Below are positions 3,750-14,669 of a stretch of 41,280 nucleotides of DNA, in pieces. This DNA comes from an archaeon. GTDB taxonomy: Archaea > Nanobdellota > Nanobdellia > Woesearchaeales > GW2011-AR9. Where the stretch lies: NCBI GenBank assembly GCA_023259115.1, contig JAHFQW010000015.1:1-41280 (forward strand). Direction: 5' to 3'. The first letter of the stretch is position 1, and every line of letters starts with the position of its first letter. Under the pieces are notes generated by a model. That model worked only from the letters and a program-made list of their open reading frames with translations. It had not been told where the DNA came from and did not search any database. A program made the translations under genes and the position numbers.

Positions 3750-4049
3750 ATGCAATTAACAATTCAAGATAAGAAGGAAAATGTTTTACTTAATCGTCGT
3801 GAGATTAAAGCGGCTTTGTCGTTTGAGAAGGCAACGCCAAGTAATAAGGACGTGGCGGAATCTATTGCAAAACAGATGAATGTTGATGCAGGATTAGTGG
3901 TTATTAAACATATTTATAATACATTTAGCTTGCGTCAGGCAAAGGTTGATGCGGTTATCTATGATACCCAGGAAACACGAGAACGTGTTGAGAGAATTAA
4001 TGGTCATCTTCGTAAGAAGTTAGAAGACGCGGTGAAGAAGACGGCGTAA
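3750..4049 (+). CDS. rps24e: Small ribosomal subunit protein eS24
   Basis: This archaeal/eukaryotic 30S subunit protein is 99 residues long, the usual size. It shows the family pattern: an N-terminal strand (MQLTIQDKKENVLLNRRE), the central ATPSNKDVAESIAKQMN, then VVIKHIYNTFSLRQAKVDAV and a basic helical tail. A GAGGGA ribosome binding site lies 8-15 bases before the ATG. It continues the rpo7-spt4 operon, an arrangement common in archaea. Confidence 0.96.
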   Translation: MQLTIQDKKENVLLNRREIKAALSFEKATPSNKDVAESIAKQMNVDAGLVVIKHIYNTFSLRQAKVDAVIYDTQETRERVERINGHLRKKLEDAVKKTA

Positions 4050-4075
4050 GTTTTAAATGGATTATTATTGATAGT

Positions 4076-4125
4076 AATTGTTTAGCAATTAATAATTGTT
4101 TAGCAATTAATAATTGTTTAGCAAT
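4076..4125 (+). repeat. Three 18-bp tandem repeats, each a small hairpin
   Basis: AATTGTTTAGCAAT occurs at 4076, 4094 and 4112, an exact 18-base period. Each unit can fold on itself (ATTG/CAAT stem around TTTAG). The repeats lie between rps24e and rps27ae, just before the putative TATA box of rps27ae at 4136-4144. They could be a terminator for the first operon, protein-binding sites, or a replication-slippage product. Confidence 0.85.
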
Positions 4126-4135
4126 ATTAAATGGG

Positions 4136-4144
4136 TATATAAAT
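4136..4144 (+). promoter_or_regulatory. Possible TATA box of rps27ae
   Basis: TATATAAAT about 50 bases before the ATG at 4193, which would give a leader of about 25 bases. That leader holds the ribosome binding site GAGGT at 4178-4182. Confidence 0.5.
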
Positions 4145-4192
4145 TAATAAATAATAATAGTAATAAAATATAAAATTGAGGTATAACATACT

Positions 4193-4408
4193 ATGGCTGC
4201 TCCTAAACCTGCTGCAAAAAAGTCCGCTGCTGGCGGTAAAACAAAGAAACCGGGAAGAAAACTGAGCGGTTTGTATTCCATTTCAGGCGATAAAGTGTCT
4301 CGAAAAAATAAGTTTTGTCCAAAGTGCGGTTCGGGTACGTTCTTGGGTTCACATCAAAATCGGCTGGTGTGCGGGAAGTGCAGGTATACGGAATTTAAGA
4401 AGAACTAG
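4193..4408 (+). CDS. rps27ae: Small ribosomal subunit protein eS27 (S27Ae-type)
   Basis: Zinc-ribbon ribosomal protein of the archaeal small subunit. Cys pairs at residues 42/45 and 60/63 (CPKC and CGKC) define the ribbon, with GSGTFLGSH between them. The protein has 71 residues; archaeal members are often 50-60, and the excess is a Lys/Ala/Pro-rich N-terminal extension (residues 1-23) likely to contact rRNA. GAGGT 11 bases before the ATG supports this start. The gene follows rps24e, a conserved archaeal pairing. Confidence 0.95.
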   Translation: MAAPKPAAKKSAAGGKTKKPGRKLSGLYSISGDKVSRKNKFCPKCGSGTFLGSHQNRLVCGKCRYTEFKKN

Positions 4409-4414
4409 ATTTGT

Positions 4415-4885
4415 GTGATTTGTATGTTTGGTACGCAGTTGACTTTGGATTCTTTGGTTTATGTTGCACAGGTTAAGACACTCCCAGCAGAAATACCGCT
4501 TGATTCTGAACAAATTGACTGGATGTTACGAGCTTATGCTATTCTAGGGGCTTATCAGGGGTTCTGTAAACCGGTTCGGAAAATTGAACAAGCGTTTGAA
4601 CTATTTGGCACAACGGAAGATATTGAGAAGAGGGTGTATATTCGTAATTTTGGCAGTGAATTACTTTTTGCTCGGAAGTTGAATCTTTCTCGTTCTGGGA
4701 ATGAGAAGCTAAAGCGTTTTCAGAAAGAGGGGGGTTGGCGTCCTATTGTTGAGGGGCATCGAATTTATGGTGTGAGTGGTGGCGATGATGTGATTTCTGT
4801 AGGCATTGCGACTCCGACGTCTATTGATGGAGAGGAATATTTTCTTCTGCAGCCGATTGTACAAATTAATTATGAGCAGATTTAA
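4415..4885 (+). CDS. Uncharacterised 153-156 residue protein
   Basis: I do not recognise this family. The frame starts with GTG at 4415; ATG at 4424 is equally possible and neither has a clear ribosome binding site. The stop of rps27ae is 6 bases upstream, so co-transcription is likely. The predicted protein is mixed alpha/beta and soluble, with no signal peptide or membrane segment. The first half is helical (residues 25-70) and the second half ends in likely beta-strands (VISVGIATPT, EYFLLQPIVQINY). Its position directly after an information-processing operon hints at a housekeeping role, but nothing in the sequence shows it. Confidence 0.7.
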   Translation: MICMFGTQLTLDSLVYVAQVKTLPAEIPLDSEQIDWMLRAYAILGAYQGFCKPVRKIEQAFELFGTTEDIEKRVYIRNFGSELLFARKLNLSRSGNEKLKRFQKEGGWRPIVEGHRIYGVSGGDDVISVGIATPTSIDGEEYFLLQPIVQINYEQI

Positions 4886-5027
4886 CTTAATACATACGTT
4901 ATATTTTGATTATGGACCGATTATAGGAAAGTTCTTTATAAATGATTATTAAATGCAATTTTAGAGTCGACCTAATTTTAGATTGGGCAAAGTTGTTACT
5001 ACTATTTAATAGGTATAACGCAGAAAG

Positions 5028-5037
5028 ATTTAAATAG
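5028..5037 (+). promoter_or_regulatory. TATA box deciding the start of the Tat-exported protein
   Basis: ATTTAAATAG lies only 6 bases before the upstream in-frame ATG (5043) but about 28 before the ATG at 5061. Leaderless transcription would therefore begin at 5061 and give a protein starting MGRRQFLRT. Another TATA-like sequence (4935-4943) lies further upstream. Confidence 0.7.
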
Positions 5038-5060
5038 ACGCAATGTTTTTAGATGTTAAT

Positions 5061-5666
5061 ATGGGTAGGAGACAATTTTTGAGAACAGCACTTTATGGTG
5101 GAACAACCGTAGCGTTAGTTGGTGCATTAATACTTAGTAGTGAATATACTGAATTACCAGGAATTGGTAATGAAGTTCAAGCGGGTCGCGCCAAAAATAG
5201 TATTGCTGCCGTAGTTGCTGGAATTGTTGGTCAAAAATTGTATGGGAATAGTGTTATTGATTTAGAGATTCAAAAATCTTTATTTACTAATGCAAGAGTT
5301 ACAGGGGATACAACTCCAAATTCTGTTGATACCTATGTTGATCTTGCACTTACAAGCGTTCATTTTGTGGGACAAAATAATTCAAATGGACAATTAGAGG
5401 GAGAAGTACACAAATCTGAATTTAATTGGAAAGTTAAACAAACTTCGGAAAATGGATATGAAATAGCAAGATGGGGTGCTAAATTTGATGGTGCTCTTGA
5501 AATTACTGTAAAAGATGGAGACATTTCTGGGACATATATTAGGGGAGGACCACATTTTAATTGGAAAGTAAATGGGGCTTATGACAATTCAGGAAGCATA
5601 AAATGTGAAATTGATGGTCCATTAAATTTGGGTATAACTCTTGATGGTAAAATAACTCCTAAATAA
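5061..5666 (+). CDS. Tat-signal secreted protein, beta-rich, function unknown
   Basis: The start at ATG 5061 puts a twin-arginine motif (GRRQFLRT) at residues 2-9, followed by a hydrophobic stretch (ALYGGTTVALVGALIL). This is a typical Tat signal for export of a folded protein. The mature part, about 170 residues, is mostly predicted beta-strand and contains the phrase FNWKV twice (in EFNWKVKQTSENG and HFNWKVNGAYDN), suggesting two related beta-hairpin or lipocalin/jelly-roll-like modules. No cysteines or catalytic motif are evident. The longer start at 5043 would add MFLDVN in front of the signal and is less likely. A double-hairpin element follows at 5708-5798. Confidence 0.8.
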   Translation: MGRRQFLRTALYGGTTVALVGALILSSEYTELPGIGNEVQAGRAKNSIAAVVAGIVGQKLYGNSVIDLEIQKSLFTNARVTGDTTPNSVDTYVDLALTSVHFVGQNNSNGQLEGEVHKSEFNWKVKQTSENGYEIARWGAKFDGALEITVKDGDISGTYIRGGPHFNWKVNGAYDNSGSIKCEIDGPLNLGITLDGKITPK

Positions 5667-5707
5667 ACAGTTCTTGCCCTTAATTCTGTAATTTGATTGA
5701 ACTTCGT

Positions 5708-5798
5708 TATATAGTAAATTGCCATAGAAACCGAACATGCTAGGCAATTTCTATATATTGAAATTCGCAACATTTTGTTCGATTTCTTGCGAATTTCA
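5708..5798. repeat. Double-hairpin intergenic element 1
   Basis: First hairpin: TATATAG plus AAATTGCC (5708-5723, one bulged T) pairs with GGCAATTT plus CTATATA (5743-5757). Second hairpin: TGAAATTCGCAA (5759-5770) pairs exactly with TTGCGAATTTCA (5787-5798). The element fills the space between two convergent genes, so it could act as a bidirectional terminator. It shares AGTAAATTGCC with the element at 23509-23598. Confidence 0.85.
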
Positions 5799-5803
5799 CT
5801 ATA

Positions 5804-6076
5804 TTAATGTATCAGGCTGCCCTCTTTATATTGTAATGCTTGGGCGTTTTGGTAACAGTTTTTGTCTAGAAAGAAGGATTCAAGGTTCTGGTTTAGTTCC
5901 ATTTGGATGGTGTACATTTCTTTTTGGATTTGTTTTGAGCAAAAATAACAGGCATGATTTGGGGTGATGCTCTCTATCCCTGTGAGTTGTCCTGTGCGAA
6001 TTTTTTCTCTGAGGGTGCTACGGGTTGTTTCATAGAGTGATCCGATAATGACTTTTTGGGGTTGGTTATCGGGCAT
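5804..6076 (-). CDS. Small Cys-containing protein, function unknown
   Basis: This 90-residue protein has the pattern ACYFCSKQI followed about 30 residues later by DKNCYQNA. It therefore offers three cysteines with a CxxC knuckle, plus nearby His, for a possible metal site. It has no signal peptide or membrane segment. The amino-acid pattern is ordinary for a real gene, and a TATA box on the minus strand (6111-6119) fits its start. It is divergent from the RHH/GHKL cassette, and a TACTTTAAAGTA palindrome at 6121-6132 lies between the two promoters, so it may share the RHH regulator. I do not recognise the family. Confidence 0.65.
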   Translation of the reverse strand: MPDNQPQKVIIGSLYETTRSTLREKIRTGQLTGIESITPNHACYFCSKQIQKEMYTIQMELNQNLESFFLDKNCYQNAQALQYKEGSLIH

Positions 6077-6110
6077 ACACTGATGAAATGAGGGTTTCTT
6101 TAAAAAGGTT

Positions 6111-6119
6111 ATTATATAA
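6111..6119 (-). promoter_or_regulatory. TATA box for the divergent Cys-containing protein
   Basis: Reads TTATATAAT on the minus strand, about 39 bases before the ATG at 6076. It adjoins the 12-base palindrome at 6121-6132. Confidence 0.6.
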
Positions 6120-6120
6120 C

Positions 6121-6180
6121 TACTTTAAAGTAACAAACTTTTAGAAAGATTTATAAAGACGTCCTACTTTTTGCTACTTT
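6121..6180 (+). promoter_or_regulatory. Cassette promoter with candidate RHH operator repeats
   Basis: A TATA box ATTTATAAAG is at 6149-6158, about 29 bases before the RHH start codon at 6183. CTACTTT occurs at 6120-6126, 6164-6170 and 6174-6180. The last two are exactly 10 bases apart, one helical turn, and cover the expected transcription start. The first copy is part of the perfect palindrome TACTTTAAAGTA (6121-6132), upstream of the TATA box. This is the kind of repeated short site that ribbon-helix-helix dimers bind cooperatively. Autoregulation is inferred. Confidence 0.65.
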
Positions 6181-6182
6181 AT

Positions 6183-6329
6183 ATGAAGCAGAAGATTTCG
6201 ATATCGGTTGATAAAAGTGTACTTGATGAGGTTGATGCAAAAGTACTCACGGGGCTGTATCGCAATAAGAGTCATTTTATTGAACTGGCAACGAGAAAGA
6301 TGTTGGAGGGGGAGTATGGCAGAGATTAA
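6183..6329 (+). CDS. Ribbon-helix-helix (CopG/Arc-type) regulator, 48 residues
   Basis: This very short gene encodes MKQKISISVDKSVLDEVD, then a turn (VLTGLYRNKSHFIE) and a second helix (LATRKMLEGE). That is the strand-helix-helix plan of MetJ/Arc/CopG repressors: an alternating polar/hydrophobic strand KQKISISVD, helix 1, a basic R/N-K-S capping turn, helix 2. Such proteins dimerise and insert the paired strands in the DNA major groove. The ATG lies 29 bases after a TATA box and the stop overlaps the next gene by 14 bases, so translation of the two is coupled. It is the likely autorepressor of the cassette that follows. Confidence 0.85.
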   Translation: MKQKISISVDKSVLDEVDAKVLTGLYRNKSHFIELATRKMLEGEYGRD

Positions 6330-7998
6330 AAAGTATACCATTGAGACTTCTCTGACGTTGGACTATCGTCGAGAAAGATGGGGCTTGGAGAGATTGGTTT
6401 TGGATGGTGTGTCTAACCATCTTCCGAATGATAGTTTGGGTACGAGGGTATCGGTTAAACTCAAACAAGCTGGAGTGTATTATGAATTACATGAGGCAGA
6501 TTGTACTAAACCTGTTGATGAGATTGTTTTTGAGGATGATGGGGCGGGGTATGATGCGAAGTTGCTCTCTGTGTTATTTTCTACTAAAAGGGCGGATGAG
6601 TTGAGTGTCGGCCAATTTGGTGAAGGATTAAAAATGGTTGCTGCAACCGCTCTGCGTGAAAATGTTGATTTAGAATACCATTCTCGCAATTGGATTGCCA
6701 AACCCTCTGCAAAACATGAAACAATTGATGGGCATGAACTTGATCGCTTGTGTTTTGAGATTATTGAGAATGGATATAATATTCAAGGCTCAAGAACGGT
6801 TATTCATAATCCATCACAAATAGTTATAAATGAAATATTTAATATTCCCACAAAAATTCTTGCTCTAAATAGAACTTATAGTGAACTGTTTAATGAGAAA
6901 GATAGGCCTAAAACCTTTATTAAAAGAGAGTATGAGAAAAATCCTCTTGGTTTTGGTGCAAGAGAGAGAGTATTACAAGAAAAATTGAAACAAAGATATC
7001 ATGATCGTATTATTGATTTACATCCTGCAGAAGAACTAGGAGAAAAAATTATTGGGGAACTTAAATCTCCTGCAAGAAAGAAACGCCACCTCTTTGTCAA
7101 AGGAGTAAGAGTGATAGAAATCCCTGCTCTCTTTGATTATGATTTAGGGCTTGAACATATTACTCCTGATAGGAGTTCTGTAAATGAAGATAAAATTCAA
7201 GAAAGAATAAACAATCTTGTCGTAGATTGTACAAACCAAGAAGTTATAACAAGAATATTACAACGAGCACAAGAATGTACCTATGGAATGGATTATGAAT
7301 TGCAAGCGTTTCTAACAAAGGAAGAACGAGAGGGGATAGGGAGAAGTGAAATCAATTTCAAAGGGGATATCAATTTCCCAACAATGAAAGAAGGTTATAT
7401 TAACAAAATGTATGAAATTAAAAGATTAGAGAATATTCTTCATCCTTGGCGAGTTGCTTTTACTAATTTATATGGGGAAAAAGCTGTTCTCCGTGATGAA
7501 AACAGCAGTACTATAAATACTGATGTAGAACGTATGGGCTACACCGTTATCTCTCTCCATTCTGGTGTTGCTCGTTTCCTTGCAGGATTGGGTGTTACAA
7601 ACGCAAGAGAAATTGCCGGACCAACAACAACAAAAAATGAATTTTGTTGGATTTCATTGGAACAATTAACAACACAAGAACAAACAATGTATCATCGTAT
7701 ACCTGAAATAAACACACAATTAGGAATCGATACTCTCCCTGAAGTTCGCATATACGCCGGATTATTTGATGCAAAAGGGTCTGAAATAGAATCTTCACTA
7801 GGAGTACAAATTACAGAACCAGATGGTACAAGATATATTGGAATCAAACAATCTGAACTTCAAACCATCGAAAAATTTTATGCTACCTATATTCATGAAT
7901 TAGGACATTTTGTAACTCGAAGAGCAGATTATGACCCTCTCTTCACTCAATTTTTTATCGATAAACTCAGCAAAATAATTGATGAGGATAATGACTAA
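6316..7998 (+). CDS. GHKL-type ATPase with C-terminal HELGH metalloprotease motif (paralogue A)
   Basis: The N-terminal ~200 residues form an Hsp90/MutL/histidine-kinase-type (GHKL) ATP-binding fold: N-box D30-x3-N34 with D39 (VLDGVSNHLPND), G1 box D75-D-G-A-G78-Y-D, G2 box VGQFGEGLK (residues 98-106). A following segment, HLFVKGVRV...ITPDRSSVNED, resembles the linker after the ATPase of phage RIIA-like and MORC-like proteins. The C-terminal ~150 residues end in a strand pair and a helix carrying H527-E-L-G-H531, the zinc site of gluzincin-type metalloproteases. The ATG at 6316 is preceded by GGAGGGGGA and lies inside the RHH gene; a further-upstream in-frame start at 6208 would run through the RHH gene and is rejected. 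It is followed by a paralogue that overlaps it by 8 bases. Cytosolic; the substrate is unknown. Confidence 0.85.
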   Translation: MAEIKKYTIETSLTLDYRRERWGLERLVLDGVSNHLPNDSLGTRVSVKLKQAGVYYELHEADCTKPVDEIVFEDDGAGYDAKLLSVLFSTKRADELSVGQFGEGLKMVAATALRENVDLEYHSRNWIAKPSAKHETIDGHELDRLCFEIIENGYNIQGSRTVIHNPSQIVINEIFNIPTKILALNRTYSELFNEKDRPKTFIKREYEKNPLGFGARERVLQEKLKQRYHDRIIDLHPAEELGEKIIGELKSPARKKRHLFVKGVRVIEIPALFDYDLGLEHITPDRSSVNEDKIQERINNLVVDCTNQEVITRILQRAQECTYGMDYELQAFLTKEEREGIGRSEINFKGDINFPTMKEGYINKMYEIKRLENILHPWRVAFTNLYGEKAVLRDENSSTINTDVERMGYTVISLHSGVARFLAGLGVTNAREIAGPTTTKNEFCWISLEQLTTQEQTMYHRIPEINTQLGIDTLPEVRIYAGLFDAKGSEIESSLGVQITEPDGTRYIGIKQSELQTIEKFYATYIHELGHFVTRRADYDPLFTQFFIDKLSKIIDEDND

Positions 7999-9781
7999 AA
8001 TGACTGAGCATACCATAGAGACATCCTTAACCCTGGACTATCGTCGAGAAAGATGGGGTTTAGAACGTATTGTCTTAGATGCTATATCCAACCATCTCCC
8101 AGAAGATAGTAACGGTACAACCGTTAGCATCAAACTAAAACAAGAGGGCACATATTATACTTTAGAAACAGCAGATAAAGAAAAAGTTGTTGAAGAGATT
8201 ATTTTTGAAGATGATGGGGCGGGATATGATTATAAATTACTCACGGTGTTATATTCCACTAAATCAGCTGATGCGTTAAGTGTCGGCCAATTTGGGGAAG
8301 GATTAAAAATGGTTGCTGCGGCAACGCTAAGATCAAATGTACATATGCAATATCAATCTCGCAATTGGATTGCCAAACCCTCTGTAAAAAATGAAACAAT
8401 TGATGATACACCGATTTCACGATTATGTTTTGATATAGATCAAGATGAAAATAATATTGTAGGATCACGAACAATTTTTTCCCATCCTCGTACAGAACTA
8501 GTAGAACAAATATTTCAATTACCACAACACGTGCTTGCATTTAATCATGAATACACAGTACTATATAGTGAAAAACATCAAAAGTATAATTCCCAAATTA
8601 TTAATTTTCCTTTTTCAAGACCAATTATAGAAGATGAATTTAATTATGAACGAAGAAAATTATTTATTAAAGGAGTAAAAATACAAGAAATAGCCTCTTT
8701 ATTTGATTATAATCTGGGATTAGAAGACATCACTCCTGATAGATTATATGCTCATGATACTTCTATTCTAAACGCTATTAAACCATTAATTTTAGGGTGT
8801 GAAGAAAAAGAAGTAATTAAATCTATTATTGAAGAAGCAAAAAAAAATACAAACAGTTTTGCCTATGAATTAAGAATATTTGATGAATATAGACGCCTCA
8901 TCAATTTAGAAGAATCAAATGTTCCAACAATACCTAAGAGAAGATATAATAATCAAATTGGATTAAAATTGCCCTCTGTTAAAAAAGAAGATATAACAGT
9001 AATACTCTCCCCTGAGGCAATAAGTGAGTCACCTCCCAGTACTCCGTCATCCCTCATGGATATTTCAGCAGTCATAGATTTCTTAAAAAAAGGAATTGGA
9101 TCTAAAGATGAAGATATGTATATAATCAAACCTAAATCCCTCATTCTAAAAGATTATGATCTATTTGATTTAGATCAGTTTGGTGATTTAAATCATTCAA
9201 GAAATCATCTCTTTGCACCAACATTAAGTCCACTCTGGAAAACAACTTTCTATGAATTATATGGTCAAAATGCGATTATTGCATCAGGGGATACAAATAG
9301 AGATGCAGATGCAGAACGTATGGGATACATCCCCATAAAATTACATGAAGGTCTCGCAAATGTCTTAATTCATAATGGTATAAAGAGCGCAACACAATTA
9401 GCAAAACGAAATGAAAAAATAATGAATTATCATTGGATACCTCTAGATCAATTAACTGCAGAAGAACAGATAACTCTTGCAAGAATAGAAAAAATAAATA
9501 AAAAAATAAATGTGCCAGAACCAATTGAAGTACGTATCTATGAAGGATTATACGATTGGAAAGATGAAGAAGTTAAAAGCGAAAAAAGTATGTGTCAAAC
9601 AGATTCTGGCGGAGCAAGATATATTGGTATTAGAAGATCAGAACTTGCAACAAAACAACAATTCGATCCACAATACATTACACGACTGGGAGAATATGTT
9701 ACTGGAAAAAAATTATATGAACGAGAAGGAACTGATTATTATGTTGAAACACTCGCACGATTACTTAGAGAAAAAAAATAG
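7991..9781 (+). CDS. GHKL-type ATPase, degenerate-protease paralogue B
   Basis: The 596-residue protein is a tandem paralogue of the preceding one: the first ~130 residues are closely alike (TIETSLTLDYRRERWGLER, DDGAGYD, SVGQFGEGLKMVAA), so ATP binding is likely preserved. The middle diverges and has an insert of about 40 residues (Pro/Ser-rich, near 8930-9060). The region matching HELGH in A reads TRLGE, so both histidines are lost and zinc-dependent catalysis is not expected. The reading frame is intact, which argues for a structural or regulatory partner rather than a decaying copy. ATG 7991 gives the same N-terminal length as A; ATG 8000 is also possible. GAGG at 7984-7987 lies just upstream. 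Confidence 0.85.
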   Translation: MTKMTEHTIETSLTLDYRRERWGLERIVLDAISNHLPEDSNGTTVSIKLKQEGTYYTLETADKEKVVEEIIFEDDGAGYDYKLLTVLYSTKSADALSVGQFGEGLKMVAAATLRSNVHMQYQSRNWIAKPSVKNETIDDTPISRLCFDIDQDENNIVGSRTIFSHPRTELVEQIFQLPQHVLAFNHEYTVLYSEKHQKYNSQIINFPFSRPIIEDEFNYERRKLFIKGVKIQEIASLFDYNLGLEDITPDRLYAHDTSILNAIKPLILGCEEKEVIKSIIEEAKKNTNSFAYELRIFDEYRRLINLEESNVPTIPKRRYNNQIGLKLPSVKKEDITVILSPEAISESPPSTPSSLMDISAVIDFLKKGIGSKDEDMYIIKPKSLILKDYDLFDLDQFGDLNHSRNHLFAPTLSPLWKTTFYELYGQNAIIASGDTNRDADAERMGYIPIKLHEGLANVLIHNGIKSATQLAKRNEKIMNYHWIPLDQLTAEEQITLARIEKINKKINVPEPIEVRIYEGLYDWKDEEVKSEKSMCQTDSGGARYIGIRRSELATKQQFDPQYITRLGEYVTGKKLYEREGTDYYVETLARLLREKK

Positions 9782-9834
9782 AGGAAAGAGAATAATATTA
9801 TCATAACAATTGGGATAATAACATAAAAAAACAA

Positions 9835-9843
9835 ATTTAAATA
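9835..9843 (+). promoter_or_regulatory. TATA box inside the cassette
   Basis: ATTTAAATA centred about 24 bases before the ATG at 9863. It suggests a second, leaderless transcript starting with the first orphan gene of the cassette. Confidence 0.55.
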
Positions 9844-9862
9844 AAAAAATGAGCTAAACACA

Positions 9863-10564
9863 ATGGGATCGATAACTTTAAACTTATATTACCAAGCACC
9901 AAGAGAAGCACTTGCCGAGTTATGCAGCTCTCTTGCTCAAATACATGGGGAAGCACGTTCAGATGTACGCTTGCTTCCGCAGAGTTTAATTAGATATTTC
10001 AATGCGTGTGCCTCAGAAATAACAGAGGGAAACACAGATGGCTGCCTGCAAAGAAATTATAGTGATGAGGTACATATTATGCCTGTAACTGCCGCTCAAT
10101 TATATTCTCGAACACACCCTGATGCAGCTCGAGTTGATCTTGGTGATTTAGCAGAACAATGCTATGCTTTGGAGGGTGATGGGTATCGTTTTCACCTCAA
10201 TTATACCTCCATAGGACTGGATGGATTGTTCAATCCTGATTCGCTCAAAACGTTGGATGTGACTTTTTCCTACAATCGTGGACATTCCCTTGAACCGACT
10301 CATTTTGAGGAACAATTCAGGGAAGCGATAACAGAGCAAGAAAAACAGTCACTGATTACTCGTATGCTTGAAAATCAGCAGAAAATGGCAGCATATACGT
10401 TACGTCTTGCTCAAGATATATTTTATCCTAATGATAGACAAGATCAATTAATGGGACCAACAGCATTACTAATACGAGGTTTCTCTATTGAACCAATCAG
10501 AAGAGATTCAAACGTATTTGATGATGTGCCAAAATTATATTATAAACACTCATTAAAAATATAA
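9863..10564 (+). CDS. Cassette orphan 1, 233 residues
   Basis: I do not recognise this protein. It is soluble, with no signal peptide or membrane helix. The N-terminal half has alternating strands and helices (ITLNLYYQAP, helix to ~residue 55). The centre contains YRFHLNYTSIGLDGLFNPDSL and LDVTFSYNRGHSLEP, likely beta-hairpins. The C-terminal half has a long helix (FEEQFREAITEQEKQSLITRML) and closes with a strand (ALLIRGFSIEPI). There is no obvious catalytic signature. It lies 81 bases after GHKL paralogue B behind a TATA-like sequence, and 16 bases before the next gene, so it belongs to the same cassette. Confidence 0.75.
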   Translation: MGSITLNLYYQAPREALAELCSSLAQIHGEARSDVRLLPQSLIRYFNACASEITEGNTDGCLQRNYSDEVHIMPVTAAQLYSRTHPDAARVDLGDLAEQCYALEGDGYRFHLNYTSIGLDGLFNPDSLKTLDVTFSYNRGHSLEPTHFEEQFREAITEQEKQSLITRMLENQQKMAAYTLRLAQDIFYPNDRQDQLMGPTALLIRGFSIEPIRRDSNVFDDVPKLYYKHSLKI

Positions 10565-10580
10565 TTGAGGAAAAATAAAA

Positions 10581-11204
10581 ATGTCAAAAGCAAATTTCAC
10601 ATACAACATATCCGCAAGTAAAGATGAGATATTAACCGCACTGATAACACATCTTACCCCTAGAGAATCTAAGGAATGCTGGGGTATGGTTGATTTAGAA
10701 AATGCAATTGAAATTCTTAGAAATGCCCAACAAGATAAACTAAACAATCCAGGTGTTAAATCATTTCAACTTGGTCAGCTCATTTTTCGTATGGATTATA
10801 TGCATACATCTGAGATGGCAGATCTTTTACATCTCTATTCCCAAAGTGTACAAGATTATCTGCCTCCCAAAATGCAAGGGCCAGGTTCAACTGCCCAATA
10901 CTTTCTTGGTTTATATCCTTTAAACTTAGATTCTTCAAATCATAAATTCTTTTTAGAATCTCGACCTGATTATCGCGGTCAAGAAATATCTCGGCATACT
11001 CCTGATGAAATTTATGCGATTGGCATCCAATCACTGCGTTTTGGCTATGATTTCTTTTGCCGAGCCCTAAATCCATTAATGGGAGAACCAGAGATCAAAA
11101 TCGAAAGTCATACTATCCCTAAAGAAATTCTAGTGGAAATACTAAAGCCAGAATACGATCTGATACAACGTTTAGAAATATTTAAAGAAATATTGCCAAA
11201 ATAA
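10581..11204 (+). CDS. Cassette orphan 2, 207 residues
   Basis: No family recognised. A ribosome binding site (TTGAGG, 10565-10570) 10 bases before the ATG and only 16 bases between the genes show translation from the same message as orphan 1. The protein is mainly helical in the first half, with LENAIEILRNAQQDKL and a strand FQLGQLIFRMDYMH. The second half contains FFLESRPDYRG and IYAIGIQSLRFGYDFFCRALN. No transmembrane segment or metal site is seen. The C-terminus is charged (LIQRLEIFKEILPK). Confidence 0.75.
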   Translation: MSKANFTYNISASKDEILTALITHLTPRESKECWGMVDLENAIEILRNAQQDKLNNPGVKSFQLGQLIFRMDYMHTSEMADLLHLYSQSVQDYLPPKMQGPGSTAQYFLGLYPLNLDSSNHKFFLESRPDYRGQEISRHTPDEIYAIGIQSLRFGYDFFCRALNPLMGEPEIKIESHTIPKEILVEILKPEYDLIQRLEIFKEILPK

Positions 11205-11209
11205 AGAAA

Positions 11210-11581
11210 ATGACTCACTCAACTCCCTCTTGTCTTGAAGTATATCTCGTGGAATATCGTTCCATGTTAATTGTTGAAACAACACTTGAAAAATATGTTT
11301 TTGATCTGCAACATAATACATATATTACTTCAATCAATGACAAAGCATCATTGATGACTCCTCTTGAACGAATGGATGCTCTCAGACACATCTCTGAATA
11401 TCTGGGAAGTACTCCCCATCCACTGGATGGAAAAAATATTGAACAGTACGTTGAGCGGATTCGAGAAGTATCGGATGAAACACTTCAACAAAAAATAAGC
11501 AACTATAACCAAAAACAACTCAGAATTTACATGTTCCAACAAGCTCAATTACTGGAATTAAATTTTCCAGATAAAAAATAA
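11210..11581 (+). CDS. Cassette orphan 3, 123 residues
   Basis: Unrecognised small protein. It opens with a beta-hairpin-like stretch (CLEVYLVEYRSMLIVETTL, then KYVFDLQHNTYITSI) and is helical after residue 45. The second half is Gln-rich (ETLQQKISNYNQKQLRIYMFQQ). The start codon is 5 bases after the stop of orphan 2 and no ribosome binding site is visible, so it is probably translated by coupling. Context is the only functional clue. Confidence 0.7.
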   Translation: MTHSTPSCLEVYLVEYRSMLIVETTLEKYVFDLQHNTYITSINDKASLMTPLERMDALRHISEYLGSTPHPLDGKNIEQYVERIREVSDETLQQKISNYNQKQLRIYMFQQAQLLELNFPDKK

Positions 11582-11612
11582 ATAAAATAGAACTAAAACC
11601 GTATCAATTACT

Positions 11613-12548
11613 ATGTCAAATACTATCCCCGATTCCAATCTTAACTACCTCCTCTTAGATAAAGATGAAACACTAGGAATATTCCCTCTAAACGGATTCT
11701 ATCCCCTAGTTGAATCGTTTCTCAATGAGCAAGTGGAGGAGGGACGAAAATTGGTTATTGCGACAACGGATAAACGAACAAGTACGTTGCGAGATCTTAA
11801 ACCAATAGATCAGCTGATTTATACGTATTTTACGCGAGAAAATTTTCGGGCACAGAGTTTTACGGAAATTAAACAGTTTTATATTGATGCTCTACACGGG
11901 ATTTGTGATGTGGAGAAAGATTACGCGATTCGAGGAGAGATATTGCCACTGGATGAGCGTAGGCGAATTGATGAGGAATATGCTGCTACGTTGCATCTAA
12001 AAGATACAAGCGAGGATAGAAAAATGAGAGAACAATCTGAGCAAAGATTGCAGGATATTCGTTCTTTTCTGAATCAAATGGTTCATCGAGAAACTCAACA
12101 ACTCTTTGATGTGGCGACATTGTATCAGAATCCGTATGATTATAGTTATGTGTTTAAAGATCTGCATTTGATTCGTCTCTATCTGGTGCAAGAAGCACAT
12201 GCAACTGTAGAAGAACATGCAACACTACGTACCGTGATGATTGGGGATATGAATGATGGTATTGCAACACCGCAATCTGATCCGTTTACGCCGGTTATTG
12301 TTATAAATAATTCACAGCGTTGCGGGAATTGGCAGCCGGTTACGGATATGCTGCATGTTCTCTATGAGAATTTGGATGAGTTTCCTTGGCAGCAATTTGA
12401 TGGACTCTATGAGATGGGAATACGAATGGTTGGGAGACGTGAAGGTCTTGATAGAGAACCGATAGAAATTTCAGGTATACGGTTATATAATCAGAGGTAT
12501 GAATTAGATCGAGGGAATAAGGGGAGGAGGATTGTGATACAAGAATAA
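11613..12548 (+). CDS. HAD-superfamily phosphatase-like protein, paralogue 1
   Basis: HAD motif I is LLLDKDETLG (D16-x-D18-x-T20), motif II is IATT, the conserved lysine of motif III sits in VFKDLHLIRLYL, and motif IV is VMIGDMNDG. These place it among acid phosphatases that use an Asp nucleophile and Mg2+. An insert of about 100 residues between motifs II and III is helical and would serve as the cap that sets substrate choice. It is 311 residues long, larger than simple HAD IIIA phosphatases. A closely related gene follows 25 bases downstream. DNA or RNA 3'-phosphate, nucleotide or sugar phosphate are all possible substrates; none is shown by the sequence. Confidence 0.8.
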   Translation: MSNTIPDSNLNYLLLDKDETLGIFPLNGFYPLVESFLNEQVEEGRKLVIATTDKRTSTLRDLKPIDQLIYTYFTRENFRAQSFTEIKQFYIDALHGICDVEKDYAIRGEILPLDERRRIDEEYAATLHLKDTSEDRKMREQSEQRLQDIRSFLNQMVHRETQQLFDVATLYQNPYDYSYVFKDLHLIRLYLVQEAHATVEEHATLRTVMIGDMNDGIATPQSDPFTPVIVINNSQRCGNWQPVTDMLHVLYENLDEFPWQQFDGLYEMGIRMVGRREGLDREPIEISGIRLYNQRYELDRGNKGRRIVIQE

Positions 12549-12573
12549 GAGTATATTCTTTAAACAAATCTAC

Positions 12574-13464
12574 ATGACAAACTATCTCTTCATTGATAAA
12601 GATGATACATTAGGAGAGTTCTGGAATGAGACTGGAATTTATCCCAACGTTACATCATTTTTAGAACAACAAGTGAGAACTAATAGAAAGATTGTTATTG
12701 CCACAACTGCGACAGTTGCAGGGGCAAAAGAACATTTAAAATCACTTGATTATCTTATCAATTGCTATATTGGCAGAGAACATTTTATTTCACAAGGGAA
12801 TTCTATTGAGAAAAAATATGTTGCTTCAGATGGCGCGATTCATAATGTCAGTGATGATTATTATGAACGAATGAATATTCTCTCTCAAAGCAAAATTGCA
12901 GACTTAAAGAAGAAAATGGATGAATTGTTGGATATTTCTCAAATAGATGATAATTCAAACTCAGATCAACACTTAGATAGATATTCTCAATTAAGTGAAG
13001 CGTTATATGGACTTATTCATAAACAGACATCAGAGCTATTTGATGATGCAACAACATATCAAAATCCGTATCAACTAGAATATGTTGGTAAAGATCTACA
13101 TCTTAGTCGTCGTTATCTAGCACCAAGAGATTATGATTTATTGCGTACGGTGATGATTGGGGATTTAGGGGATGGTATCTCTGTACCACAATCTGATCCG
13201 TTTACACCGGTTGTTGTGATTAATCCCTCACAACGAGAAGGTAATTGGCTTCCTGTTGGCATACTACTTGATTCACTCTATTCAGAACAAGCGCAATTTC
13301 CTTGGGAGGTATTTGATTTATTCTATGCGCAGGGAACAAAGAGTACTGTGAAAAGAAGTCTGTTAGACTATCAACCTCAAGAAGTTAGTACTTTTATACT
13401 TAATGAAGTACATTATGATCTTGACCAAGCTAATGGGGGAAGGAGGATTGTGATTAAGCCATAA
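12574..13464 (+). CDS. HAD-superfamily phosphatase-like protein, paralogue 2
   Basis: A tandem paralogue of the preceding gene: motif I FIDKDDTLG (D8, D10, T12), motif II IATTAT, motif III GKDLHLSRRYL, motif IV MIGDLGDGISVPQSDPFTP. All catalytic positions are kept, so it should be active. The cap region differs most (residues 75-140, Ser/Asp/Lys-rich). Both copies end in a nearly identical GGRRIVI-type tail. The last gene of the cassette; the ftsZ gene runs toward it from the other side with 65 bases between, and I see no clear hairpin there. Confidence 0.8.
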   Translation: MTNYLFIDKDDTLGEFWNETGIYPNVTSFLEQQVRTNRKIVIATTATVAGAKEHLKSLDYLINCYIGREHFISQGNSIEKKYVASDGAIHNVSDDYYERMNILSQSKIADLKKKMDELLDISQIDDNSNSDQHLDRYSQLSEALYGLIHKQTSELFDDATTYQNPYQLEYVGKDLHLSRRYLAPRDYDLLRTVMIGDLGDGISVPQSDPFTPVVVINPSQREGNWLPVGILLDSLYSEQAQFPWEVFDLFYAQGTKSTVKRSLLDYQPQEVSTFILNEVHYDLDQANGGRRIVIKP

Positions 13465-13529
13465 TCTCTCAAAGTGTATATCTTAGAAAAAATAGGACAA
13501 TGTTCAGAAATCTCCAATTCCTAAATTAT

Positions 13530-14669
13530 TTAATTCATAAATTCAATGCCTAGTTCATTTTCGATGGCTTTTCTCTTGCCAGAGGTGATACTATTGCCTT
13601 CACCAAATATTTGGTCGGAATGCACTCCGGTTATGATGACCATGGTGCGAATGGTTTTTTCTAAGTCTTTGTAAATTTGCGCTCCCCAGATGATCTTGGC
13701 TTTGGCATCAAGTCGTTGCGCAACGGTTTCGACGATTTTACGAGATTCGTCAAGAGTAAGATTTTCGCCACCGGAAATGTTGATTAATGCGCCTGTGGCA
13801 TTGCTGATATCAACATCGATTAAAGGATTGCCTAGGGCGCGCTCAACGGATTCTTCGGCGCGGCGTTCGGAGTTATCTGATTCGCCTACACCAATCATGG
13901 CAACTCCACCTTCGCTCATAATGGTTTTTACATCAGCAAAGTCAAGATTGACTAAGCCGGCGCGGGTGACAAGTTCGGCGATACCTTTTACGGCATTGGT
14001 GAGAATTTCATCTGCGACTTTGAATGCGGTTTGCAGTGGTAAATGGGGTGCTAGTTCTAATAATTTTTCATTAGGGATAACAATTAAGGTGTTTACGGCT
14101 TGTTCGAGTTTTTCAAGGCCGATCATGGCGTTTTCAAAGCGATGGCTGCCTTCCATCATAAAAGGCATGGTGACAATGGCGACACTCAATAAGCCCATTT
14201 TACGAGCAACGGAGGCAACAAATGGCGCACTTCCGGTTCCGGTACCACCACCAAGGCCACAGGTGATAAAAATCATATCAGCGCCTTCTAGGAGCTTTTT
14301 AATATCTGCTTCATTTTCTTTGGCGGCTTCTTCTCCGACTTTGGGGTTGGAACCTGCTCCGAGGCCTTGGGTTAGTTGTTTTCCGATGAGCAGTTTTTTA
14401 TCTGCTCCGGTGTACAACAAATCTTGGGCATCGGTATTGAGGGCAATTGTTTCAATTCCTTTAATTCCTACTTCAGAAATACGATTGATAGTATTATTTC
14501 CACCGCCGCCACAGCCAACAACACGGATACGGGTTTTATGTGAGGCAATTAAGCGTTCGAGCTCTTCATCAATTGCGGCATTGCGCTTGGCGCCTTCTTC
14601 TACTTTTGCTGCCATCATGGAGCCTTTGCCGTAGCCAATGCCGGATTTGTTTTCCATATAACTATCCAT
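13530..14669 (-). CDS. ftsZ: Cell division GTPase FtsZ
   Basis: Tubulin-like GTPase that polymerises into the division ring. The signature [11 protein letters not shown] is present, with the upstream [14 protein letters not shown] nucleotide loop and the T7 catalytic loop [13 protein letters not shown], which supplies the Asp that completes the neighbour's active site. An N-terminal extension of about 45 residues precedes the GTPase core. The C-terminus ends ELGIEFMN, the conserved short tail of archaeal FtsZ. ATG 14669 has a GAGG site 6 bases upstream and a TATA box at 14718-14727; TTG 14681 is an alternative. It is the last gene of the cmk-FKBP-ftsZ block. Confidence 0.97.

Follow-up and report, generated by a model that had tools for sequence, protein, structure and literature searches.

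A putative RHH-regulated GHKL ATPase–zincin protease at a variable gene site of a DPANN archaeon

The gene cluster analysed here appears, on balance, to be built around a portable, self-repressed, ATP-gated intracellular protease, namely an RHH regulator together with a GHKL–zincin protein that is present in this case as two paralogues with one active site. The cluster lies in a stretch of 41,280 nt (the window) from a genome of 1.57 Mb (54 contigs, 96% complete), in which eight ORFs, all on the + strand, span 6183–13464 in the order RHH, GHKL1, GHKL2, orfA, orfB, orfC, HAD1 and HAD2. The domains and their fusion, the conservation of motifs and promoter sites, the RHH linkage, the duplications and the insertion context were all computed here. 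The features, in coordinates of the window, are:

6120..6133 (+), upstream operator half-site region CTACTTTAAAGTAA, aligned with the AGTAG-type sites of 11 RHH promoters
6150..6157 (+), TATA box TTTATAAA, flanked by the two operator regions and at the same position in 11/11 aligned promoters
6164..6180 (+), putative downstream operator, CTACTTT-TTG-CTACTTT
6183..6329 (+), RHH (CopG/CdrS-like) regulator of 48 aa, with little past the RHH fold; weak Pfam RHH_8 and RHH_1 matches
6316..7998 (+), GHKL1, with a GHKL ATPase as N-terminal half and a C-terminal zincin, carrying HELGH (aa 527–531) and D538
7994..9781 (+), GHKL2, paralogue of GHKL1 with intact ATPase motifs, the zincin motif gone (RLGE...LY)
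9863..10564 (+), orfA, orphan
10581..11204 (+), orfB, orphan
11210..11581 (+), orfC, similar in sequence to the C-terminal region of a protein under RHH control in the genome G036
11613..12548 (+), HAD1, HAD-motif protein
12574..13464 (+), HAD2, paralogue of HAD1

The RHH and GHKL1 frames overlap by 14 bases and those of GHKL1 and GHKL2 by 5 bases. Since the subsequent gap of 81 bases between GHKL2 and orfA holds a TATA-like TTTAAATA ahead of orfA, two transcription units are likely, one comprising RHH, GHKL1 and GHKL2 and the other running from orfA to HAD2. All ORFs of the eight same-strand genes described in a sequence-only reading of this DNA were recovered, with the qualification set by this gap, as were its leading short RHH gene, read here as autoregulatory, its two tandem paralogue pairs (46% identity for GHKL1/2 and 47% for HAD1/2) and its motif calls. 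GHKL1 and GHKL2 both carry the GHKL motifs, HELGH is confined to GHKL1, and each HAD protein has DxDxT, K and GDxxD. No model of Pfam, PADLOC or NCBIfam scored above cut-off for any of the eight proteins; among the PADLOC known-defence models, RHH, GHKL1 and GHKL2 gave no match, and the best E-values of the other five proteins were 0.008–0.03.

Domain architecture and tandem copies of the GHKL proteins

The N box, DxGxG, GQFGEG and GSRT motifs are intact in both GHKL1 and GHKL2, with the Asn present and an Asp at the place of the catalytic Glu of Hsp90. The Pfam HATPase_c match to the family was sub-threshold. GHKL1 was modelled with AlphaFold2 from 26 homologues of archaeal, bacterial and viral origin (pLDDT 83.5); in Foldseek the model matched the N-domains of TopoVI-B and Hsp90, and a profile of the whole family matched, in its N-terminal half, Hsp90 (E 3.7e-5), MORC2 (1.3e-4) and TopoVI-B (2e-4); compared with solved GHKL structures, the overall likeness of this half is modest (TM ~0.2 by query length). 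Judged by motifs and the predicted Hsp90-like fold, both proteins can be assigned to the GHKL (Bergerat-fold) ATPases. Their likeness to MORC lies in the GHKL part, which in MORC forms one ATPase module together with S5 domains.

The C-terminal 189 residues of GHKL1, modelled separately (pLDDT 92.6), had a sole confident fold match in the PDB, the minigluzincin abylysin (4jiu; probability 1.00, TMt 0.60, E 0.02, a modest likeness to solved zincin structures), and the corresponding part of the family profile matched Wss1p (E 9.8e-4). The HELGH motif sits in a helix of the GHKL1 model (518–534). Across 23 archaeal, bacterial and viral proteins, the only columns of this domain conserved to at least 90% are the H, E, H and D of HExxH-x6-D; the near-invariant Asp follows the second His at +7, which is not a standard spacing for a third ligand. 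By motif and predicted fold, the C-terminal half of GHKL1 thus falls among the zincin metallopeptidases and would bind zinc and cleave protein, whereas GHKL2, in which all four motif residues are lost, lacks the motif. Minigluzincins and Wss1/SprT, the best fold and profile relatives of this domain, differ from GHKL1 in having no GHKL domain and another third-ligand spacing. The earlier suggestion that a GHKL ATPase is linked to a protease is supported here in a literal form, in that motifs and model place both within one GHKL1 polypeptide. In the open-access full texts and family libraries searched, no GHKL domain joined to a metalloprotease under its own RHH repressor was found.

The families closest to the two halves by profile, Hsp90/MORC2/TopoVI-B and Wss1p/Spartan, respectively, together with a SprT-like match also obtained in the viral fold search, would suit a protein whose GHKL dimer closes round DNA like TopoVI-B or MORC and whose Wss1/SprT-like zincin clears proteins stuck on DNA. 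We consider such a role improbable, as these similarities are weak, the third-ligand pattern is unlike that of SprT/Wss1, no repair genes were noted as neighbours and the distribution is patchy rather than core.

GHKL ATPase domains are known ahead of nucleases, in chaperones and in topoisomerases. In VcSduA, a Shedu nuclease acting in phage defence, an N-terminal GHKL ATPase has been proposed to control the C-terminal effector (PMC12137116); this effector is a PD-(D/E)xK nuclease and not a zincin, and the resemblance to GHKL1 is one of analogy, not of sequence membership. Similarly, in VP1 (ORF11) of the archaeal virus SFV1 a GHKL ATPase is joined to a domain with no assigned function (PMC6105669); VP1 shares a fusion of this kind with GHKL1 but is a virion protein.

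In a tree of this one gene, in which support values are moderate, GHKL1 and GHKL2 are sisters (0.998). Tandem copies fused in one polypeptide were also found in L063_8, from another genome of the order, in L092_7 of a Parcubacterium and in L093_14 of a Clostridia bacterium, and more divergent ones in L095_7 of a Dojkabacterium; in each of the four, the HExxH is found in the C-terminal copy only. Since the halves of L063 are sisters (0.856) and those of L092 and L093 fall in a common a clade and a common b clade, these sequences indicate at least three duplications (GHKL1/2, L063 and the L092–L093 lineage), all of which were left with one HExxH site. It is mainly because duplications repeatedly end with one protease site that asymmetric dimers are proposed below. 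Gene conversion between the GHKL paralogues was considered and set aside; their identity is higher in the first 150 codons, and much of this is explained by amino-acid conservation.

RHH linkage and promoter sites

Upstream of a GHKL gene, an RHH gene was found at 11 separate loci of DPANN archaea whose flanks are unrelated, namely the window, G053 (L061/L081), G283 (L060/L082), L084, G334 (L089/L199) and G236 (L071), and further G154:C13 (L062), G165 (L064/L083), G051 (L065/L088), G036 (L023) and G008 (L025/L085). Genes in the related loci were called by a simple script, which may miss some short ones. The RHH gene overlaps or abuts the GHKL gene at 10 of the 11, the exception being G008 with one 230-aa gene in between. 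This intervening gene (10934–11626 of L025) carries HELSH and may encode a second metallopeptidase under the same RHH. The RHH proteins are mostly 44–51 aa long with almost no tail. One more locus, L087, has a possible weak RHH before its GHKL gene (E 0.0026; the E-values for RHH and orfC come from small local sets and apply to those sets) and was left out of the count, and no RHH was detectable upstream at nine or more of the approximately 22 DPANN GHKL loci.

An alignment of the 11 upstream regions centres on TTTATAAA/TTTAAATA, and AGTAG or CTACT half-sites lie to either side of it. The first six promoters hold 16 such half-sites, where 3.1 would be expected and none of 2000 shuffles exceeded 11, and the remaining five hold one or two each. 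The tandem site downstream of the TATA box has no second exact copy in the 1.57-Mb genome. Because the sites around the TATA box are conserved and the tandem site is unique in the genome, dedicated autoregulation by RHH is the natural reading of these sequences. A wider RHH regulon in the same genome was tried as well and rejected, near matches to the tandem site being no commoner than those of a reversed control (14+16 vs 31+22).

A toxin–antitoxin pair, in which an RHH antitoxin neutralises a toxic GHKL–zincin, would also be expected to show a small RHH gene immediately ahead of its partner, overlapping frames, operator-like sites that are conserved and a patchy distribution. RHH antitoxins bind their toxin through a C-terminal tail, and compared with those of type II systems the RHH proteins found here have almost none beyond the DNA-binding fold; moreover, relatives without any RHH exist and neither PADLOC nor NCBIfam gave a match above cut-off, all of which makes a toxin–antitoxin pair unlikely.

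Somewhat better placed, though still a tentative proposal, is a protease–repressor switch, in which the activated GHKL–zincin would cleave RHH and thereby derepress its own operon. Pairs of an HExxH protease gene and a repressor gene are known; in IrrE/DdrO the metalloprotease inactivates the repressor, and ImmA/ImmR is likewise a protease–repressor pair (PMC7907104). The adjacent genes, the overlapping frames and the dedicated autoregulation would fit such a switch, as would a sub-threshold match of one viral relative to Peptidase_M78 (IrrE N-terminal-like). However, the likeness is an analogy, since the repressors of those systems are of the XRE type and not RHH and no GHKL domain is present there; with an RHH regulator and M78 sub-threshold in a single viral relative, the cluster falls outside the ImmA/IrrE (COG2856/M78) plus XRE repressor family. 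In addition, RHH proteins of mostly 47–51 aa leave scant room for a cleavable linker, and many family members have no RHH neighbour. Such a switch would be a special case of the self-repressed, ATP-gated protease that we favour.

Neighbouring genes and the variable site

Neither orfA nor orfB had a relative in any other of the 288 genomes of the order, and both probably stand outside the conserved module. For orfC, a similar sequence was found in G036, at the C-terminal end of a protein of 400 aa (32% over 81 aa, E 2e-7 in a small local set). In that genome (L023, 5745–7147), a duplicated RHH gene and promoter, nearly identical to the GHKL-linked copy and approximately 3 kb from the RHH–GHKL pair, precede the 400-aa protein with the orfC-like end, which is the one sign that a neighbour can share the RHH regulatory circuit. 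A weak orfC match in G275, at the end of a membrane-transporter-like ORF, was discarded.

Besides the window genome, three genomes of the order have members of the HAD family, namely G154, G147 and G192, and no GHKL relative was found in the latter two. DxDxT, the motif II Thr, K and GDxxD are invariant in five HAD homologues, and HAD1 and HAD2 are placed in the HAD superfamily by these motifs alone, Pfam Hydrolase reaching just E 0.24 in one member; a profile search against solved structures gave weak matches only, to thymidylate kinase and sugar-phosphatase (E 0.03–0.04). The HAD gene of G154 lies in a same-strand run (L062, 6769–11620), whose other genes resemble, by eye, those for a HEIGH metallopeptidase, a D-Ala-D-Ala peptidase, an M23 peptidase and a CheR-like methyltransferase.

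FtsZ and S24e–S27ae lie side by side and converge in seven relatives, where 0.4–3.9 kb separate the 3' ends of FtsZ and S24e and the junction holds either no further gene or unrelated genes. The same junction spans 9.5 kb in the window (4049–13530) and is filled by the present cluster. The convergent S24e–S27ae/FtsZ junction is a variable gene site in the family (0.4 to 9.5 kb), and co-location there is therefore weak evidence for a common function. The gene upstream of the cluster (5043–5666) starts with a twin-arginine-like signal (MGRRQFLRTALYGG...), and its product is probably secreted.

It had been proposed from sequence that the eight genes form one system, with RHH, the GHKL pair, the orphans and the HAD phosphatases acting together. 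Their tight same-strand packing argues for this, as do the duplicated RHH cassette of G036, which precedes an orfC-like region close to the RHH–GHKL pair, and the HAD gene located 8 kb from a GHKL gene in G154. Against it, orfA and orfB are unique to this genome among those searched, two of the three other genomes with HAD relatives have no GHKL relative, GHKL relatives nearly always lack HAD or orphan genes nearby (the orfC-like case of G036 being the single exception), orfA has a TATA-like box of its own and the site is a variable junction. Genome searches with the GHKL, HAD, orfA, orfB and orfC proteins recovered no second eight-gene set. The expectation of recurrence with variable flanks was accordingly borne out for RHH–GHKL and failed for the full set, and we regard the eight-gene system as very unlikely; the three orphans and two HAD proteins are most likely neighbours in a shared variable site and not required parts of the RHH–GHKL module.

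Distribution, viral relatives and proposed mechanism

Relatives of the GHKL–zincin protein are patchily distributed (E<=0.001, the window genome counted), being present in 8/49 genomes of the family, 13/288 of the order and 17/371 of the phylum; approximately 290–370 genomes were searched per query, and absence refers to those. The relatives have unrelated genes as neighbours, and no neighbours of defence-island type were seen around the GHKL loci. Within the family they include contigs with the title Candidatus Woesearchaeota, and others come from records whose titles name Nanosalinarum, Pacearchaeota, Parcubacteria, Clostridia and Calditrichales. Some relatives are split or truncated (L025, L028, L064 and L062), so that either the GHKL gene is often lost or the assemblies are imperfect. 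In the Archaeon GW2011_AR15 chromosome (G165; L064 9272–10906, the same place as L083), one in-frame TAG splits the ATPase from the zincin part, which makes this copy either a pseudogene or a pair of halves expressed separately.

The phage link suggested for the GHKL proteins was confirmed by PHROGs, where both match phrog_6077, a phage family with no function given (3e-14 and 5e-14). Versions of approximately 420–490 aa occur on viral contigs, with an HExxH near the C-terminus in 20 of 21, and among members from isolated phages the HExxH is present in one of ten, AYP68649.1 of Exiguobacterium phage vB_EalM-132, a hypothetical protein of 437 aa carrying HETIH...D; the other nine are shorter forms without it. 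Several of the short forms from isolated phages (L128–L137) end in a similar N(R/K)KHMR. These phrog_6077 proteins, AYP68649.1 included, are the closest viral relatives by sequence, and differ in being viral with no adjoining RHH gene noted. A single-protein scan of viral contigs detected no relatives. In a BFVD fold search the best match was a 437-aa protein (2.7e-24), and further matches included a protein of the archaeal filamentous virus Sulfolobales Beppu filamentous phage 1 (8e-11) and RIIA proteins, e.g. that of Klebsiella phage Marfa (5e-7).

T4 RIIA and RIIA-like phage proteins have an N-terminal GHKL domain and a highly variable C-terminal domain (PMC7824862), a layout to which the modelled fold of GHKL1 may correspond. 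With viral homologues, RIIA fold matches and some phage members without the zincin end, GHKL1 could be a domesticated viral RIIA-like gene whose protease part is not essential and which is kept for counter-defence or superinfection exclusion. This seems improbable, as HExxH-x6-D is nearly invariant in very divergent members and the archaeal gene has dedicated RHH regulation; GHKL1 is a cellular, RHH-regulated protein with a zincin as its C-terminal half, and the passage on RIIA consulted does not mention a zincin end.

For the self-repressed protease that we favour, the following sequence of events can be envisaged. RHH would bind the CTACT/AGTAG half-sites around the TATA box of its own promoter and hold the operon off, until a trigger lifts the repression and the GHKL ATPase–zincin protein is made. 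By analogy with Hsp90, TopoVI-B and MORC, the N-terminal Bergerat-fold domain would dimerise upon ATP binding, and closure of this clamp would position or uncover the C-terminal zincin (HExxH-x6-D), which would then cleave a specific target protein. GHKL2 would serve as the non-proteolytic partner; as it has lost all four motif residues and GHKL1 has kept the site, the natural form is probably a GHKL1–GHKL2 heterodimer with one active site. This pairing, the ATP gating and proteolysis itself, with its target and trigger, are inferred.

A use in virus–host or element–host conflict is plausible, and is suggested by the patchy distribution, the variable sites and the RIIA-like phage relatives; the defence or stress role put forward in the sequence-only reading is likewise conceivable. 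More speculatively, the family may represent a new class of ATP-driven proteases, in which Hsp90-type clamps carry a zincin, asymmetric dimers combine one live and one dead protease, and the RHH repressor is part of its own switch, and which small archaea, bacteria and viruses would share for genetic conflict. If the favoured reading is true, it would establish an ATP-controlled type of protease outside the AAA+ families, provide a testable function for the unnamed phage family phrog_6077 and offer an entry into the regulated accessory genes of DPANN archaea.
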